Positions 11,231-20,036 of a DNA stretch of 64,000 bases are shown one piece after another. Location: the NCBI GenBank assembly GCA_001899805.1, contig MKWP01000014.1, forward strand, positions 372,001 through 436,000, in the 5' to 3' direction. The stretch comes from Lysobacterales bacterium 66-474 (GTDB taxonomy: Bacteria; Pseudomonadota; Gammaproteobacteria; Xanthomonadales; Rhodanobacteraceae). The translations under genes and the position numbers were made by a program. The notes below the pieces were generated by a model. The model made no database searches and was not told the origin of the DNA. It saw only the letters and a program-made list of their open reading frames with translations. The first letter of the stretch is position 1. Each line of letters starts with the position of its first letter.

Positions 11231-12226
11231 ATGGCGTGGGCTTTGACGTTGGACACGGCGCAGCGGCGGCCGATCGTCCGCATGTTCCGGTGTTTTGCAC
11301 TTCTGGTGGCGTGGCTCGGTGTCGCTGTCGCGGCGCACGCACAATCGGCGGATGGCAGCTATCGCCAGTCGCGCGACGATGCCTGGTGGACCGGCCCGAT
11401 GCTGGCCAATTCCGCCGATACCCTGCCGCGCGGGCACGTCCTGATCGAACCCTATCTTTACGACGTCGCGTCGAAGGGCGCCGACCGTTTCGGTTCACGC
11501 GCCTACGTGTTGTATGGACTCACGGACCGGCTCACGGTCGGCCTGATTCCCATCATCGGCTACAACCGCATCAGCGGCGCCCCGGACAGTTCGCGGGTGG
11601 GCTTTGCCGACCAGATCCTGCAGGCGCAATTCCGGCTCACCCGGTTCCAGGAAGGCAGCCGGCTGCCCACGATCTCGCTGCTGTTGCAGGAGAGCGTGCC
11701 CACCGGCCGTTACGATCGCCTGCAGCGGGCCAGCGACGGCATGGGGCAGGGCGCCTGGGCGACCACGCTGGGTGTCAACGCGCAGAGTTATTTCTGGATG
11801 CCCAACGGCCGCATCCTGCGCGTGCGGCTGAACCTCGCCCGCACGTTCGCGAGCCACGCCGACGTCGACGGCGCCAGCGTGTTCGGCACCGGTTCCGATT
11901 TTCAAGGCAGGGCTTCACTCGGCGCGGGGTATTCCATCGACACCGCGTTCGAATACAGCCTGACGCGCCGCTGGGTGCTGGCGCTGGACCTGTTCCACAG
12001 CCACAACGATGCGACCCATCTGGTTGGTCATGACGACACCCCTGGTTTGCCTCGCATGCCGGTGCGCACGCGCATTGGTGCCTCGGATGCCTTCGGTTAT
12101 GCCCCCGCGGTGGAATACAACTTCTCGCCCACCCTCGGCGTGCTGCTCGGCGTGCGCGTGATCACGGGTGGCCACAACACGCAGCGTTCGGTGACGCCAG
12201 CCATCGCGGTCAACTACGTGCATTGA
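11231..12226 (+). CDS. putative outer-membrane beta-barrel protein (phenol_MetA_deg-like)
   Basis: About 331 residues. A signal peptide (FRCFALLVAWLGVAVAAHA, cleaved near AHA|QS) is followed by alternating aromatic and polar strands with a transmembrane-barrel look, starting HVLIEPYLYDV and YGLTDRLTVGLIPIIGYN and ending EYNFSPTLGVLLGVRVITG. This resembles the family named after the meta-pathway of phenol degradation, whose function is poorly known. ATG 11231 has a GGAG six bases upstream; ATG 11225 (adjacent GGAG) and 11282 (shorter signal peptide, no RBS) are alternatives. It is divergent from the MocR regulator. Confidence 0.75.
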   Translation: MAWALTLDTAQRRPIVRMFRCFALLVAWLGVAVAAHAQSADGSYRQSRDDAWWTGPMLANSADTLPRGHVLIEPYLYDVASKGADRFGSRAYVLYGLTDRLTVGLIPIIGYNRISGAPDSSRVGFADQILQAQFRLTRFQEGSRLPTISLLLQESVPTGRYDRLQRASDGMGQGAWATTLGVNAQSYFWMPNGRILRVRLNLARTFASHADVDGASVFGTGSDFQGRASLGAGYSIDTAFEYSLTRRWVLALDLFHSHNDATHLVGHDDTPGLPRMPVRTRIGASDAFGYAPAVEYNFSPTLGVLLGVRVITGGHNTQRSVTPAIAVNYVH

Positions 12227-12319
12227 GCGGCGCGGGCCGGGATTGCAAGAAACCGCCGCTCAGGCGAAGGCCGGGGCCTGGAGCAACTTCGGTTTTGATG
12301 GTTACGAAAAGCACCCCCA

Positions 12320-12425
12320 TCCGCCTTCGGCACCTTCCCCCGCGCTATGCGCAGGGGAAGGAAATGCTTTGCTTCCCCCGCTTGCGGGGGAAGCTGCCCG
12401 AAGGGCTGAAGGGGACCTTCTCGTC
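12320..12425. repeat. CTTCCCCCGC palindromic repeats between genes
   Basis: Two related hairpins stand in tandem. The second, GCTTCCCCCGC-TT-GCGGGGGAAGC (12371-12394), is perfect. The 22 bases 12372-12393 recur identically inside icmF at 16534-16555, and the next ~20 bases (TGCCCG.AGGGC) are also similar. With the REP at 12459-12503 and the terminator at 12517-12545 these occupy the 343-base gap 12227-12569, which holds no supported gene. Confidence 0.8.
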
Positions 12426-12458
12426 AGCCCTTGAGTCGAAAGTGCTCTAGCTCCAGCA

Positions 12459-12503
12459 GGTTGGGCCTCCCCCGGATCGGGTCCGGGCTCAGCGCCAACC
12501 TAC
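12459..12503. repeat. single REP-like element
   Basis: AGGTTGGGCCTCCCCC starts the element and GCGCCAACCT ends it, enclosing GGATCGGGTCCGGGCTC. Both halves are variants of the REP pairs that flank the RAYT at 3.7 kb, so this looks like a dispersed copy. Confidence 0.7.
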
Positions 12504-12516
12504 AAAGCATTCCGGC

Positions 12517-12545
12517 AAAAAAAGCCCGGCGATGCGCGCCGGGCT
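12517..12545 (-). terminator. rho-independent terminator of the YXWGXW gene
   Basis: AGCCCGGCG (12523-12531) pairs perfectly with CGCCGGGCT (12537-12545) around a 5-base loop. On the minus strand the stem is followed by a run of seven T. It lies 25 bases past the stop of the minus-strand gene at 12570. Confidence 0.85.
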
Positions 12546-12569
12546 CGGATGTGAAACGCGGGAAGGCGA

Positions 12570-12989
12570 TCAATCCTGGTCGTCGTTGTCGCCGTGGTGG
12601 TCGTGGTCACCGTGGTGTTTGTACCAGCCGCGGTGCCGGCCGTTGTCATGGCGACCGCGCCAATGCTCGTCCCTGCCCCAGTAGGCGCGGCGCATCCGCC
12701 AATGATCGCCGTCACGCTCCCAGCGCGGCTGGTAATAGACATAGCCGGGGCGGTCGCGGTACCAGTTGCCGCCGACCCATACATAGCCCGAACCGCCCCA
12801 GTTCCAGTAGCCCGGCGCCCAGACGTAACCTGGACGCGGCGCCGGCACCATTTCATAACGCATCGGTGGCGGCGGCGTGCCGACGCTGATGCCGATACTG
12901 ACCTGCGCGGATGCCGGTGGCGTGATCGCCAACGTGGCGCCGCCTGCGATGGCCAGCGCGGCGAGCAATGCAAGATTGCGTGGTTGCAC
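12570..12989 (-). CDS. YXWGXW repeat-containing secreted protein
   Basis: A 139-residue exported protein. The signal peptide covers about residues 1-28 (NLALLAALAIAGGATLAITPP, then ASAQ), followed by a PPPP linker and the Tyr/Trp repeats of the YXWGXW family: GYVWAPGYWNWGG, GYVWVGGNWY, GYVYYQPRWERDGDHW. The tail is a His/Asp-rich stretch (WYKHHGDHDHHGDNDDQD) that could bind metal. Family members are small envelope proteins of unknown function, common in Beta- and Gammaproteobacteria. It has its own terminator at 12517-12545. Confidence 0.85.
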   Translation of the reverse strand: MQPRNLALLAALAIAGGATLAITPPASAQVSIGISVGTPPPPMRYEMVPAPRPGYVWAPGYWNWGGSGYVWVGGNWYRDRPGYVYYQPRWERDGDHWRMRRAYWGRDEHWRGRHDNGRHRGWYKHHGDHDHHGDNDDQD

Positions 12990-13168
12990 GAGACACCTCC
13001 TTCATGTTCGGCCAATCTTGGCCTCGGCCCGAGAATAGCCAGGGAATTCTTTGCCTACGCTTTTTTATCACCCGTTCATTCAGATTGCATCGGGTTCGGG
13101 TGTGTTCACGCTACACCACACTCGATGACTGCAACGCGACGTCGGTCGCACTGCACGCCGGCGCCGTT

Positions 13169-14707
13169 TCAAAGTTGCGTCTCGATCGGCAGCCACCGCA
13201 GCACTTTCGCGATGACGCGGCGTGCGAGTGTCGCATCCGGTTCGCGTTCGAGGATCGCGGGTGGCTGCCGGACAGCGTCTTCCCAACGCAACTTGCCGTT
13301 CGCATCCAGGCGTACTGTGTAACTCAACGCAGGGTCCGCCAGCCGCCGGAATTCGTCCTCAAGGGATTTGCCAAGTTCGGCGTCGTCGAACAACACACCC
13401 ATTTCGGTATTGAGCGTGGCCGAACGCATGTCCAGGTTGAACGAACCGATGAAGCCGTCGTGCCCGTCGATCACGAAGGCCTTGGTGTGCAGGCTGGCGC
13501 CGGAGCTGCCGAACAACCCTGCGCTGCCGGGGTGTCCCTGCGCGCGGAGTTCATACAGTTTCACGCCACCTTCGAGCAGCGGCTTGCGGTAGCGCGCGTA
13601 ACCGGCGTGCACGGCGGGCACGTCGTTGGCGGCCAGCGAGTTGGTCACCACGCGCACGTCCACACCCTTGCGTGCCAGATCCAGCAGTTGGCGGGTGCCG
13701 TGCTTGCCGGGCACGAAGTAGGGCGAGATCAGCCACGCGCGCGTCGTGGCCGTTCCGATCGCATCGACCAGGCGCCGCACCAGCCATTCCCCGCGATCGT
13801 CGCGGCGCCACTTCGCCGGCGGATCCGCGACCACTTCGATCTTGTCGACCCACGCCAGGTGTCGTTGGCCCTTCAGGAAGGCTTCGACCCCGCGCGCGGA
13901 TTCCACCTGCGCCAAGTATTCGCGCGCTCGATCGCTGGTGGACTCGCCGCGGACGTCGTCCCGCAGTTGCCGCATGCGTTCGGGGTCCTGATTCCCCAGC
14001 GCCTTCAGCGGAACCACCGTGTCGCTGTTCCAGTAGCGATCGAAGATGCCTTCGGCGTCGGCCACCACCGGACCCATCAGCAACACATCGAGGTCGCGGA
14101 AATTGGTGCCGCTGGCGGCATTGAAATATTCCTCGCCGATGTTGCGGCCACCGACGATCGCGATGCGGCCATCCGCGATCCACGACTTGTTGTGCATGCG
14201 GTGGTTGATGCGCAGCGCGCGCACCACGGTTTCCAGCAGCCGCCACAGGCCGGAGCGGTTGCGGAACGGGTTGTACACCCGGATCTCGATGTTGGGATGG
14301 GCGTCCAGCGCAAGCATCTGCTGGTCGAGCCCGTAGGCATTCATGTCGTCCAGCAGCATGCGCACGCGCACGCCACGATCCGCCGCGCGCGCGACCTCGC
14401 GCGCCAGCAGGCGTCCGCACAGGTCGTCGTGCCACATGTAGTACTGCAGGTCCAGGCTGCGGCCGGCATCGCGGGTGCATAGTGCGCGCGACGCAAACGC
14501 AGTCGGTCCGTCGTTGAGCATCACTGCGCCGCTCAAGTCCGGGTGCGCGGCCAGCAACGGCGCGACCGCGCGGTCGAGTGGGGTTGCATCCGGCTGGATG
14601 GGCAGCGTACGGGACGGCTCGCCCGACGCCTTGGGCGCGAGGCGATCGGCGAGGATGGCGCCGGCCACCACCAGGACCAGCAGGATGAGGATGATCGCGA
14701 CCAGCAT
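13169..14707 (-). CDS. phospholipase D-family protein, cardiolipin synthase-like
   Basis: A 512-residue protein with one N-terminal membrane helix ([19 protein letters not shown]) and two HKD catalytic motifs: HNKSWIAD starting at His172 and HTKAFVID starting at His407. Each is followed by the typical GGRNIGEEY or GSFNLDMRS. The two motifs together form one PLD active site that transfers phosphatidyl groups, as in ClsB/ClsC-type cardiolipin synthases, probably at the inner membrane. The start at 14707 is chosen because the helix begins there; the longer frame to 14860 would overlap the icmF promoter and start. Confidence 0.9.
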
Positions 14708-14841
14708 GGCGGGTCCCGTTGCGTGCCTGCCGCGAACATGCCACAAGTCGTGCCGCAGGTGAAGGTGGTCTGCCGGAATGCGGGGCCGCAGGCCGTCGCG
14801 CGGTACAATCGGGTGGTTCCAAAGCTGCAACTGCGAGCCGA

Positions 14842-17800
14842 ATGATGAGTGCCCCCGCATCCCGAGTTCCCGCCCACGAACCGCAGGCCGACACCACGCC
14901 GCTGCGCTTCGTCACCGCGGCCAGCCTGTTCGACGGGCACGACGCGGCCATCAACATCATGCGGCGGATCATCCAGTCGCAGGGCGCGGAGGTGATCCAC
15001 CTCGGCCACAACCGTTCGGTGGAAGACGTGGTGCGCGCGGCGCTGCAGGAAGACGCCGACGGCATCGCGCTGTCGAGTTACCAGGGCGGCCACGTCGAAT
15101 ACTTCAAGTACATGGTGGACATGCTGCGCGAGCGCGGCGCCGGCCATATCCGCGTGTTCGGCGGCGGCGGCGGCACCATCACGCCCGAGGAAATCAAACA
15201 GCTCGAAGACTACGGCGTCGAGCGCATCTACCACCCCAACGACGGCATGCACATGGGGCTGGTGCACATGATCGAGGACGTGGTGGCGCGGGCGAAGCAC
15301 GCACGGGACCAGGGACAGGGGACCGGGGACCGGCAGAAGCAGGGACCGGGAACCGGGGACCGGGGACCAGTGGTTGGTGCGTTCGCAAATATTGATGACG
15401 AAATAAGTGTCGGTCGGGTTCTCAGTGAAATTGAAGACGGCGGATTTTCCGAGGCCGAACTGAAGTTGTTGCGCAAGCAGTGGGCCAGTGCACATCCGGT
15501 CCCCGGTCCCCGGTCCCCGGTCCCCGTCATTGGCATCACCGGCACCGGCGGCGCGGGCAAGTCGTCTGTCGTCGATGAACTGCTGTTGCGCTTCCTGCAC
15601 GCGTTCCCCGAAATGCGGATCGCGGTGCTGGCGGTCGATCCGACCCGCCGCAAGGGCGGCGGCGCATTGCTGGGCGACCGCATCCGCATGAACGCGCTGC
15701 GCTCGCACCGCGTGTTCATGCGTTCGATGGCGACGCGTCGCGCGCACGTCGCGACCAACGCGGTCCTGCACGACTGCATCGCATTCCTGAAATCGCTGCC
15801 GTTCGACCTCGTGATCGTTGAAACCGCCGGCATCGGGCAGGCCGACACCGAAATCGTGGACCTCGTCGATTTCCCGGTGTACGTGATGACCAGCGACTAC
15901 GGCGCGGCGTCGCAGCTCGAAAAGATCGACATGCTGGATTTCGCCCAACTCGTCGTGCTCAACAAGTACGACCGCCGCGGCGCCGAAGACGCGCTGCGCG
16001 ACGTGCGCAAGCAGTGGAAGCGCAACCACACCGCGTTCCAGATGCCGGACGAAGACGTGCCGGTGTATCCGACCATCGCCAGCCAGTTCAACGACCCCGG
16101 CGTCACCTGGATGTTCGCGAACCTGTGCCGGTTGCTGCGCGAGAAGGTTTTGCATTCATCTCCCTCTGCGGCGTCGCTTCCCGCTCCGGGCGAAGCGGCT
16201 TTGCATCCCTCTCCCCCCGGGAGAGGGACCGAGGGTGAGGGTACGGTCTCGCACTGCGACTTCAACCCGCACCTCGACACCACGCTGAAGGAACCGCGCG
16301 CCACCGTACTGATCCCCGGCAAGCGCGTGCGCTACCTCGCCGAAATCGCCGAACAAGGCAGGGGCATCAACGTCGATGCCAAGCGCATGGCCGAGGCCGC
16401 GTCGAAGGCGCAGCACTATTACGAGTCGTTGAAGGAACTCGACGATCCGGCGTTGCCGAAGCCGCTCGATCTTTACGACAACCAGTATCTTTCCCTTCCC
16501 CCGCTTGCGGGTACGCATCCAACTGAGCGTTCCCTTCCCCCGCTTGCGGGGGAAGGTGCCCGCAGGGCGGATGGGGGGAACACCGCGACGTCTTCGCAAG
16601 CTTCCCCCCACCCCAACCCTCCCCCGCATGCGGGGGAGGGAGACGCGCGCTCTGCGCGCGTGGGAGGGGGCAATGATGTTTCCTCGCAAGCGGGGGAGAG
16701 GGCAAATTCAAAAACCGTTCGCGCTGAGCGTAGCTCCCCGCAGGCGAGCGAAGTCGAAGCGCAGGAGCAGATGGATTCCCGCGTGCGCGGGAATGACGAC
16801 GAAGTAGATGGCAGCGTTCTGCTCCTGCGTCAACGCTACAACGAAGCGGTGAAGGAACTCTCGGCGGACGCCATCCACGCCCTGCGCGACTGGCCCGCAC
16901 GCCGCGAATCGGTCCAAGCCGAATTCAACGAATACACGGTGCGCGGCAAGGCCATCAAGGTGGACAACTACCGCGAAACCCTGTCGCACCAAAAGGTGCC
17001 GAAGATCGCGCCGCCCACGACCAACGATTGGGGCGAGCAGCTCAAGTACCTGATGCTGGAAAACCTGCCGGGGGCGTACCCGTACACCGGCGGCGTGTAC
17101 CCGTACCGGCGCAGCGGCGAAGACCCGACCCGCATGTTCGCGGGCGAGGGCACGCCCGAGCGCACCAACCGCCGCTTCCATTACCTCAGCCTCGGCCAGC
17201 CCGCCGCGCGGCTTTCCACCGCGTTTGATTCGGTCACCCTGTACGGCGAAGACCCGGCGCCGCGCCCGGACATCTACGGCAAGATAGGCAACTCCGGCGT
17301 GTCCATCGCGACGCTGGTGGACATGAAGAAGCTGTATTCCGGCTTCGACCTGTGCAACCCCAAGACCAGCGTGTCGATGACCATCAACGGCCCCGCGCCG
17401 ATGATCCTCGCGATGTTCATGAACACCGCGATCGACCAGCAGGTCGAGAAATACCTGAAGGAAGACGCGGCGCGCTGGGCCACGGCGGAAAAGAAGATTG
17501 CCGAACTCCTCAAAGGCAAGCCGCAGCCGAAGTACCACGGCGATCTGCCGCAAGGCAACGACGGCCTCGGCCTCGCGCTGCTCGGCGTCACCGGCGACCA
17601 GCTTGTCGACTCCGAAACCTACGCGCGCATCAAGGAACACACGCTCTCCACCGTGCGCGGCACCGTGCAGGCCGACATCCTGAAGGAAGACCAGGCGCAG
17701 AACACCTGCATCTTCTCCACCGAATTCGCGCTGCGCATGATGGGCGACATCCAGCAGTATTTCGTCGACCACAAGGTGCGCAACTTCTATTCGGTGTCGA

Positions 17801-18891
17801 TCTCGGGCTACCACATCGCCGAGGCCGGGGCGAACCCGATCTCGCAGCTCGCCTTCACGCTGTCGAACGGCTTCACCATCGTCGAGTACTACCTCGCGCG
17901 CGGCATGCAGATCGACGACTTCGCGCCCAACCTGTCGTTCTTCTTCTCCAACGGCATGGACCCGGAATACAGCGTGATCGGCCGCGTCGCGCGGCGCATC
18001 TGGGCGCGCGCGATGCGCGAGCGCTACGGCGCGTCACCGCGCAGCCAGATGCTGAAGTACCACATCCAGACCTCCGGGCGATCCCTCCATGCCCAGGAAA
18101 TCCAGTTCAACGACATCCGCACCACGCTGCAGGCGCTGTACGCGCTGTTCGACAACTGCAATTCACTACATACGAACGCCTACGACGAAGCCATCACCAC
18201 GCCCACCGAGGAATCCGTGCGCCGCGCGGTCGCCATCCAGCTCATCATCAACCACGAGCTGGGGCTCAACTTCAACGAAAACCCGTGGCAGGGCAGCTAC
18301 GTCATCGAGGCGCTCACCGACCTCGTGGAAGAGGCCGTGTACAAGGAGTTCGAAGCCATCAGCGACCGCGGCGGCGTGCTGGGCGCGATGGACACCATGT
18401 ACCAGCGCGGCAAGATCCAGGAAGAATCGCTGTACTACGAACACAAGAAACACGACGGCTCGCTGCCGCTGATCGGCGTCAACACCTTCCTGCCCAAGGA
18501 ACACGCCGGCGAAACTGCCACCACCATCGAGCTGATCCGCTCGACCGAAGAAGAAAAACACCAGCAGATCGACAACGTGCAGGCCTTCCAGCAAGCCCGC
18601 AACGCGCTGGCGCCGTCAGGCGAAACCGACCGCACGCACGAAGTCGATTCCGCCGATGACGCGAGCGACGGCCAACAAAACACCGTTCGCCCTGAGCGTA
18701 GCTCGCCGAAGGCGAGCGAAGTCGAAGGGCATAATGCGGCGCAAGGACACGGCCTGCGCTATCTTCAGGACACCGCGCGTGAACGCCGCAACGTGTTCGA
18801 GGCGCTGATGGAAGCTGTGAAGACCCACTCGCTGGGGCAGATCAGTCATGCCTTGTACGATGTGGGTGGGGAGTACCGGCGGAATATGTAG
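14842..18891 (+). CDS. icmF: fused isobutyryl-CoA mutase (IcmF) with repeat-derived inserts
   Basis: A 1349-residue B12 enzyme that interconverts isobutyryl-CoA and n-butyryl-CoA or related acyl-CoAs. Domain order: B12-binding domain (residues ~20-150, FDGHDAAIN with His33, then [11 protein letters not shown]); MeaI-type G-protein chaperone (P-loop [12 protein letters not shown] from residue 231); linker; and mutase TIM barrel (~695-1275, with [12 protein letters not shown] and [11 protein letters not shown]). Characterised IcmF proteins have about 1,090 residues. The excess lies in low-complexity segments at residues ~154-176, 219-230, 439-470, 551-655 and 1275-1300, all encoded by repeats that are otherwise intergenic. 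The frame stays open through all of them. The start is ATG 14842 or the next codon, 14845. Divergent from the PLD gene. Confidence 0.93.
15304..15525. repeat. GGGACCG repeats in inverted blocks inside icmF
   Basis: GGGACCGGG-type units repeat several times at about 15304-15368, and their reverse complement (GGTCCCC units) repeats at about 15499-15525. The two blocks flank about 43 normal codons and could pair into a long stem in the mRNA. They encode [17 protein letters not shown] and VPGPRSPVP, low-complexity linkers between the B12 and G domains. Confidence 0.8.
16156..16245. repeat. repeat-derived insert in icmF, G-domain/linker junction
   Basis: Sequence of the kind CATCCCTCTCCCCCCGGGAGAG, typical of an intergenic hairpin, encodes [20 protein letters not shown] and [10 protein letters not shown] between the G domain ([10 protein letters not shown]) and the linker ([14 protein letters not shown]). 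It is read in frame. Confidence 0.75.
16491..16803. repeat. ~310-base block of nested repeats inserted in icmF
   Basis: The block contains a 21-base direct repeat (16491-16511 and 16530-16550), a perfect hairpin identical to the intergenic copy at 12372-12393 (16534-16555), a CCCCGCATGCGGGG hairpin near 16621-16638, a CGTTCGCGCTGAGCGTAGC element near 16715 that recurs near 18683, and a CCCGCGTGCGCGGGAATGAC unit near 16778. It encodes about 104 low-complexity residues between LYDNQYL and LLRQRYNEA. Confidence 0.85.
18664..18735. repeat. repeat-derived insert near the 3' end of icmF
   Basis: CCGTTCGCCCTGAGCGTAGC and GCGAAGTCGAAGGGC frame a hairpin-like unit related to the copy at ~16715-16765. 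It encodes [18 protein letters not shown]; the earlier copy reads [18 protein letters not shown], so both copies are in the same reading frame. Confidence 0.8.
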
Positions 18892-18932
18892 TTTGTTGTG
18901 CGCGCAATGCGAATGGGAGCAGGGAGAACAAG

Positions 18933-20036
18933 ATGAGTGACCGCAGCGCCTTGAAAGAAATAGAAATGAGCTTTTTCCAGGAGGATTCGGAACAGCCGAT
19001 TCCGCCTGATAATGTAGTCGCGTACAATGAATTGCGTTCATGCGCGGACCTGAATCGTATGTATGGCGCTGGGAGTGGAAAGCTTGAGCTTCAGCCAGAT
19101 TTTCAGCGTGAGGTTGTGTGGAAGCGGTCAGAACAAGCACGATTCATTGATTCGCTCGTTAAGCGCCTCCCGATTCCAAGCATGTGTTTTAGTCTTGATG
19201 CAAAAACCCAGAAGTGGAAAGTAATAGATGGCCTGCAGAGAATGACCACTATTACCCAATTCTTGGGGACCGCGGAGTGGAGAATTGATAATTTAGACGA
19301 TATTCATCCGTTGTTAAAAGGTGCTACAAACTATCAACTTAAGAATGGCGATGAAGCACAAAAGTCAATATACGCAAGTGTTGAAGATATAAGTATACCA
19401 ATTACTGTGATCCGATGTGATTATGAAAATGACAGTCATACTAGATATTTATTTACGATATTCAATCGCCTAAATTCTGGCGGCGTTAGGTTGAACAACC
19501 AAGAAATTAGAAACTGCATATATTCAGGTCATTTTAATGATGAACTAAAAAAATTTGATCGCACGGACAGAAATTGGTCTCAGATCAAACGCAATATTTG
19601 GGGGCCAGTGGATCGATTTCGCTCGGTCGAGGTGGCGCTACGCGCGTTGGCGTTTACCGCCGGCTTGAAAAATTACGAAGGGAACCTTGCGGGATTTCTA
19701 AACATATTCATGCAAAAAGCGTCGAAGGCTTCTGTTGAACAAACTGCTGAGGTAATTACACAGTTGACAGAAGGCGCGGAGGGGGCGGCCGTGGTGTTGC
19801 GCGCACTAGGATCAACGAAAAAGGCCTTAACGCTGGTGGAGGCGGTCTTGGTCGGAGTCCTTTCTAATGTCGATACGATCCGGGATCGTGCTGACCGAGA
19901 TCAGTTTCTAGTTGATGCAGGAGCGCGTCTTTTACGTGAGCCTGAGTTTGCTGAAGGCGCGCGGTATGCCCTCGCTAGCGCTAAGACGGTGAAGGCAAGG
20001 CTGGAGAAGGCGGTGGCAATCTTCGGGCGGCCGTAA
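18933..20036 (+). CDS. DUF262 (ParB/GmrS-like) domain protein
   Basis: A 367-residue protein with an N-terminal DUF262 domain: LQPDFQREVVWK near residue 53, then IDGLQRMTTITQF with the DGxQR nucleotide-binding signature at residues 99-103, and FNRLNSGGVRLNNQEIRNC. DUF262 proteins include the GmrS half of type IV restriction systems and ParB-like NTPases. This one lacks the C-terminal HNH (DUF1524) nuclease of fused GmrSD. Base composition is clearly AT-richer than the neighbours, especially 19180-19580, which suggests horizontal transfer. RBS AGGGAGA precedes ATG 18933. The stop overlaps the next start (TAATG), implying translational coupling. Confidence 0.88.
   Translation: MSDRSALKEIEMSFFQEDSEQPIPPDNVVAYNELRSCADLNRMYGAGSGKLELQPDFQREVVWKRSEQARFIDSLVKRLPIPSMCFSLDAKTQKWKVIDGLQRMTTITQFLGTAEWRIDNLDDIHPLLKGATNYQLKNGDEAQKSIYASVEDISIPITVIRCDYENDSHTRYLFTIFNRLNSGGVRLNNQEIRNCIYSGHFNDELKKFDRTDRNWSQIKRNIWGPVDRFRSVEVALRALAFTAGLKNYEGNLAGFLNIFMQKASKASVEQTAEVITQLTEGAEGAAVVLRALGSTKKALTLVEAVLVGVLSNVDTIRDRADRDQFLVDAGARLLREPEFAEGARYALASAKTVKARLEKAVAIFGRP

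Follow-up and report, generated by a model that had tools for sequence, protein, structure and literature searches.

In-frame insertion of dispersed short repeats as the likely origin of five expanded linkers in icmF of Lysobacterales bacterium 66-474

The window analyzed here is a stretch of 64,000 nucleotides from Lysobacterales bacterium 66-474 (G000:C14:372001-436000, where G000 denotes the window genome, a draft of 3.73 Mb in 16 contigs), and it carries icmF, the gene for the fused isobutyryl-CoA mutase/GTPase. We found that five linkers of icmF are made largely of at least five dispersed repeat families. The initial annotation had proposed that repeat elements colonize this coding gene, and this view was supported, as the linker sequences were not common to the orthologues and the repeats were dispersed genome-wide. 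It is very probable that the repeats insert widely and that selection spares only the frame-preserving copies in flexible linkers. The process would start from short GC-rich repeats that are mostly palindromic, belong to several unrelated families, and lie dispersed and largely intergenic. These would occasionally insert into genes, and selection would remove any copy that disrupts the reading frame or a folded domain. The survivors would have a net length that is a multiple of three, no stop codon and a position within a flexible linker, where they would be translated as a nearly neutral, disordered spacer. More insertion, together with slippage and template switching, would then keep altering a linker that already bears a repeat. 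Insertion and subsequent purifying selection would explain the position, frame and turnover of the inserts.

The icmF gene (14842..18891, forward strand, ATG at 14842) was intact and encoded 1349 residues. The protein matched the NCBIfam model NF045497 over its full length with 1633.8 bits (cut-off 1500) and contained the Pfam domains B12-binding, MeaB and MM_CoA_mutase; this score and the combination of B12-binding, GTPase and mutase domains identify it as a member of the IcmF family, and the nearest solved structure was PDB 4xc6. The excess of about 250 residues over characterized IcmF proteins, claimed at the outset, amounted to 256 residues relative to the 1093 of C. metallidurans IcmF (residue numbering in PMC10481361), and the NCBIfam model has 1076 positions. 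We defined linkers S1 to S5 against 41 orthologues from relatives, out of 49 other genomes with a match; contig ends truncate some of these genes. Together, S1-S5 comprised 245 residues in the window gene versus 43-51 in gammaproteobacterial outgroups (12-15, 8, 5-6, 9-17 and 8 residues, respectively; rows L129-L131 and L134-L138, which include Steroidobacteraceae, Woeseiaceae and one named Xanthomonadales), and the linkers thus account for about 200 residues of the 256-residue excess. The statement that the excess lies in hairpin-rich, low-complexity segments therefore held for this portion and not for all 256 residues. Additionally, part of S5, a GETDxxHEVDSAD stretch, was a lineage extension without repeat character.

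All five linkers are read on the forward strand. S1 (15292..15381; 30 residues, 151-180) contained G-rich GGGGACC-type heptamer arrays in 15312-15368, and S2 (15487..15531; 15 residues, 216-230) contained their reverse complement, an opposite-strand array at 15496-15525 that forms the inverted partner of S1; these arrays were missing from the repeat list of the initial annotation. The inverted match between the two arms (I1) spanned 29 nt with 93% complementarity and flanked a conserved coding segment of 35 residues (15382..15486, forward strand), for which the AlphaFold model predicted helices at 187-198 and 204-216. S3 (16147..16257; 37 residues, 436-472) held a CCCTCTCCC..GGGAGAGGG repeat at 16204-16241. 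S4 (16492..16824; 111 residues, 551-661) was a cluster of several units, namely CTTCCCCCGC-type units at 16491-16556, 16618-16639 and 16682-16698, a CCGTTCGC..GTAG-type unit at 16715-16763 and a ATTCCCGC..GCGGGAAT unit at about 16770-16800. S5 (18595..18750; 52 residues, 1252-1303) held a second CCGTTCGC unit at 18683-18730. The two CCGTTCGC units, said at the outset to encode near-identical peptides, were 91% identical over 54 nt (16710-16763 and 18678-18731), and the match between an intergenic hairpin (12372..12393, strand unassigned) and 16534-16555 was exact over 22 nt, with 0 of 100 shuffles matching at up to three mismatches. The inserts had all been placed in inter-domain linkers, which was correct for S1-S4, while S5 is a loop near the C-terminus.

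The repeats of icmF were found throughout the genome. In 864 kb of G000, six icmF insert queries gave 94 hits at 52 places (E <= 0.01), six of which lie in icmF itself, and one third-order Markov shuffle of the same sample gave no hits. Relative to predicted genes, 22 places were intergenic, 23 were inside and 7 were at a gene edge; the in-house gene caller is approximate, and some inside places lie near a start that was possibly called too early. Genome-wide, CCGTTCG occurred at 25 distinct places (34 rows merged by hand), CCCCCGCNNGCGGGGG at 39 and ATTCCCGC at 9, with icmF copies included and a reversed control of 0 in each case. An unbiased library of intergenic repeats under strict criteria revealed an internal repeat with coding signal on both sides in 5 of 632 predicted genes; its 85 repeat places comprised 6 internal, 57 intergenic and 22 that lacked coding signal on one flank. 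This count is a floor, because heptamers and clustered inserts were missed. The three main variants of the heptamer arrays were open in all six frames and five other repeat consensus sequences in five or six, which by our own estimate is only mildly above expectation at 66% GC. The CCGTTCGC unit at 18683-18730 showed GTAG followed by a CTCGCC-GAA-GGCGAG stem, the end and palindromic stem of the GTAG superfamily of repetitive extragenic palindromes (REPs), and some genomic copies of the unit were without GTAG.

Further genes carried the repeat families in frame, a point that the initial annotation had proposed to check. In the 864 kb and in further stretches, with gene families assigned by NCBIfam or Pfam, in-frame copies were present in sucB, metG, dnaE, ileS, thiL, ribD and an N6/N4 DNA methylase gene, as well as in polA, nadE, nuoG and valS, and nadE held a heptamer pair. 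Such in-frame insertion in conserved protein genes is also a feature of Rickettsia palindromic elements (RPEs). Among the genes met in the 864-kb sample, icmF was the most heavily loaded, with six places compared with two in the next genes. In ccmE, ribE, sufS and argG (the last named from its sequence, without a family search), the repeats were near gene ends, and the true start or stop is possibly elsewhere. The orthologue comparison covered sucB, polA and dnaE, where the inserts were in frame and variable between species. In particular, the dnaE insert was present in 2 of 13 aligned species; at its site, a third carried another insert, one that contains heptamers, and the remaining 10 had four residues only. 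No ORF was obtained from G015 and G011.

Alignment to the IcmF orthologues did not recover the same linker sequences, and both the lengths and the sequences of the linkers varied between close species. We compared 71 icmF genes, 41 from the genomes of relatives and 30 named (at the named loci, an ORF was recovered by motif search in 68 of 80 and none in 12), after dropping L109, a duplicate of G025, and G016, in which icmF (L076) was split over two reading frames, either through an error of the metagenome-assembled genome (MAG) or through a real frameshift. Using length limits of S1 > 20, S2 > 12, S3 > 12 and S4 > 22 residues, 39 of the 71 genes were expanded in S1-S4, which corresponds to 17 state changes across the tree; the limit for S4 by itself was exceeded in 26 of 71, with 18 changes. 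The CCGTTCGC unit of S5 was found only in the window genome among five aligned, being missing in four relatives, and icmF of G004 was without the S4 cluster. In G014, S4 agreed with the window over roughly its final 100 nt, the number and order of the CTTCCCCC units differed, and S3 held a heptamer pair. The S4 cluster may have arisen because a linker that holds a repeat keeps changing by insertion, slippage and template switching. An assembly error, a pseudogene or chance GC-rich linker sequence might be suspected in a draft of 16 contigs, and this reading is largely refuted and scarcely credible: a related S4 insert is present in the single-contig genome G014, the family match is full-length and above the cut-off, and shuffled controls gave no matches.

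Several side observations concern the same linkers. Beside the S4 repeat, CGCAGGAGCAG at 16760-16770 is the exact inverse of CTGCTCCTGCG at 16819-16829, which lies 48 nt downstream in conserved coding DNA; the match is possibly a trace of fold-back templating, and the pairing of this region was imperfect in G014. Longer inserts resembling miniature inverted-repeat transposable elements (MITEs) and bounded by terminal inverted repeats (AAAAGGGGTCAGAGTC.. and AAAAGGTGTCAGGGACAATTT..) were seen in S2 of L072 (icmF of G009) and in S1 of L112 (a Thermomonas MAG). No icmF match at 1e-100 was obtained from seven genomes of the window's genus (G001-G003, G006-G008 and G010), some of them incomplete, which reflects either gene loss or gaps.

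Several points weigh against widespread insertion followed by selection. Neither an insertion event nor a mobilizing enzyme was identified, no target-site duplication was seen at the inserts, and at S5 the divergence of the flanks leaves no clean empty site. PF01797, the family of REP-associated tyrosine transposases (RAYTs), which are frequent and not obligatory companions of the GTAG superfamily, had no match in the window genome; the control was positive in 5 of 14 genomes. Mobilization by a RAYT in the present genome was thus rejected and is not proposed here. Of the 71 icmF genes, 32 showed no expansion, and since the criterion was length, a long linker was not always repeat: S3 of L111 is one example, and S1 of the Bacteroidota genes L152 and L162 reached 36 and 33 residues without repeat character. 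Changes on the tree do not separate gain from loss, but the diversity of repeats in the linkers argues for repeated gain. Lastly, that the inserts are translated is something we infer, and the predicted confidence of S2 was not low, in a model that ends at residue 770, before S5.

This AlphaFold model (IcmF residues 1-770, 56 sequences) had a mean predicted local distance difference test (pLDDT) of 73.6 and a predicted template modeling score (pTM) of 0.65, with high confidence in most domain parts. The pLDDT fell below 50 at 168-171 in S1, 455-465 in S3, and 556-637 and 649-651 in S4. Values below 50 were also found outside the linkers, for the N-terminal residues 1-13, for 489-492 and for 746-770, where the modeled chain was cut. 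Low values in parts of S1, S3 and S4 are consistent with disorder without proving it. A hexamer coding score trained on G000 and taken per 150 nt was mostly 11-34 across icmF and fell to between -2.6 and 2.2 for intervals starting at 15262-15382 (here -2.6 to 2.1), 16522-16702 and 18622, that is, to around 0 in parts of S1/S2, S4 and S5. Intervals around S3 kept scores of 13-24, and those starting at 15442 and 15502, whose span includes S2, kept 12 and 14. The inserts might instead have been selected as protein, with longer flexible linkers tuning the movement of the cobalamin, G-protein and mutase domains; the domains of this enzyme do move apart (PMC10481361), and the inserts lie in its linkers. 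This explanation is highly improbable, as insert length and sequence are unconserved among close species and the same repeats occur in unrelated proteins.

As stated at the outset, the insert DNA was rich in hairpins. RNA folding gave z -7.9 for 16480-16830 (S4; equaled by 0 of 100 shuffles) and z -4.2 for 15290-15540 (S1-S2; equaled by 1 of 200); Rfam at gathering thresholds gave no match in 12000-19000. Such strong in-frame hairpins could point to post-transcriptional removal of the inserts or to ribosomes that skip them, and bypass elements are known that would provide a parallel. We give this next to no credence: the reading frame stays open through the inserts, as first reported, over the whole ORF, and no skipping is needed.

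The heptamer arrays of S1 and S2 consist of at least two tandem 7-mers that start with GGGA or GGGG, and they form a convergent inverted pair like those of the xanthomonad heptamer repeats. In lists typed for four genomes, in which not every heptamer variant was typed for each genome, all 26 of 26 neighboring opposite arrays ran G-rich then C-rich, and the same order was seen in 11 of 11 cases from the stretches of G000 covered. We read the loose orientation flags in G013, G058, L115 and L132 as units holding both GGG and CCC, or as chance. The reversed-pattern control gave 0 for G000, 38 for G049, 18 for G059 and single hits in a few others. Both S1 and S2 arrays were present in 16 of 71 icmF genes and S1 alone in 2; heptamers occurred in icmF in 11 of 16 heptamer-rich genomes versus 0 of 26 poor ones, with kinship ignored. 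The segment between the arms was conserved coding sequence in icmF (35 residues) and sucB (the E3-binding domain) and a variable linker in polA. Nine G000 pairs were compared by blast; strong hits fell on the arms and none was seen confined to the loop, and the idea that pair and loop form one homologous element was rejected.

We found that the two arms of a pair match each other. With arrays picked by periodicity, the own-pair arm score in 16 icmF species had a mean of 47.2 versus 29.5 when permuted (0 of 20000). Within G000, where two variants coexist, it was 50.2 versus 39.3 (51 of 20000), and this matching is not explained by the general repertoire of the genome. Own arms scored 46.4 (n=17: 11 icmF, 5 polA and 1 sucB), compared with 39.7 for arms of another gene of the same genome (n=12) and 28.9 for the same gene of another genome (n=130); the smaller contrast across genes of one genome indicates that part of the matching is genome-wide. 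Phylogenetically independent contrasts for icmF comprised 8 independent pairs, of which about 6.8 showed the S1 and S2 arrays changing in the same direction and 0 in opposite directions (p 0.016). For sucB, without permutation, own-arm scores were well above the mean of the others in G000, G014, G013 and G009, showed a weaker excess in G032 and G012, and showed none in G011 (score 12; others' mean 17.2).

This co-variation, the fold stability and the similar layout in sucB and polA of several species could mean that inverted pairs are selected as mRNA hairpins that act at the borders between domains, by pausing translation or stabilizing the mRNA, for instance. We consider this improbable, because template switching between inverted arms, which homogenizes arms in yeast coding DNA (PMC8604942), gives arm matching too, intergenic pairs also show it, the pair is missing altogether in many orthologues, the sucB arms of G011 are unmatched, and any palindromic DNA is expected to be stable. 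Template switching is our preferred and simplest explanation; the S1/S2 arms would match because a linker that holds a repeat keeps changing by insertion, slippage and template switching. A more specific proposal, which we regard as doubtful, is that pairs bracketing the 35-residue IcmF segment and the SucB E3-binding domain evolve with their arms in step and thereby keep a long nucleic-acid hairpin through sequence change within the coding region of essential enzymes, where it would pause or protect at a domain boundary. Arm-matched pairs in coding genes allow a direct test of whether template switching or selection on RNA structure keeps inverted repeats.

Three known systems resemble these repeats: intragenic GTAG/CGTC REPs (Di Nocera et al. 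2013, PMC3733652); xanthomonad GGGAATC heptamers (Rehm et al. 2015, PMC4692102); and RPEs, reportedly from Ogata et al. in 2000 and 2002. The initial annotation had compared the inserts in concept with RPEs, which is fair as an analogy, and intragenic REPs (PMC3733652) are a closer precedent. RPEs are likewise palindromic in-frame inserts in conserved genes, but compared by description they measure ~150 bp versus units of ~20-50 bp here (PMC10969869, PMC3733652), where the families are unrelated and copies between genes are about as many as, or more than, those within genes. In-frame and intragenic GTAG/CGTC REPs were reported in 2013 as short palindromes in polA, dnaE/dnaE2 and tRNA synthetase genes, so that the kind of insert described here is already known; different REPs occupy about the same site in recB of two Xanthomonas species, and linker neutrality has been discussed (PMC3733652). 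In contrast to that report, several unrelated families, heptamer arrays included, occur here in one gene, in a genome without a RAYT-family gene; icmF, sucB and nadE are not named in the parts of PMC3733652 covered, and "mutase" is absent from its main text, the supplement apart. The xanthomonad heptamers are also G-rich arrays, often arranged as inverted pairs that converge (70 such cases in one species and 75 in another), and are mostly intergenic, although 11% and 7% overlap ORFs at least in part (PMC4692102). In the window genome, the GGGGACC and GGGACTC variants occur in frame, and in icmF and sucB the arrays bracket conserved coding segments with arms matched within the pair.

No title on repeat inserts in icmF was returned by a literature search that covered neither the PMC3733652 supplement nor the majority of subscription journals. 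Within the literature searched, we found no precedent for icmF as a recurrent target, for unrelated families mixed in one gene or for arm-matched heptamer pairs bracketing coding segments. In this bacterium and in related ones, scattered repeat DNA has apparently been turned into part of working housekeeping proteins. Repeat DNA would thus feed the linkers of core enzymes repeatedly, at the same sites and from unrelated repeats, in a lineage outside Rickettsia, and in-frame insertion may be a recurrent source of protein linkers.

Among the G000 arrays (L188-L247), those with coding signal on both sides appeared to be mostly GGGGACC (icmF, sucB, nadE, nuoG and thiL), and GGGACTC, the commoner variant, appeared mostly without coding signal on both sides, with polA as the exception. 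The DNA methylase gene (L198:6069-9074) contained two near-identical in-frame PSPSGRGAGGEG inserts ~750 residues apart.

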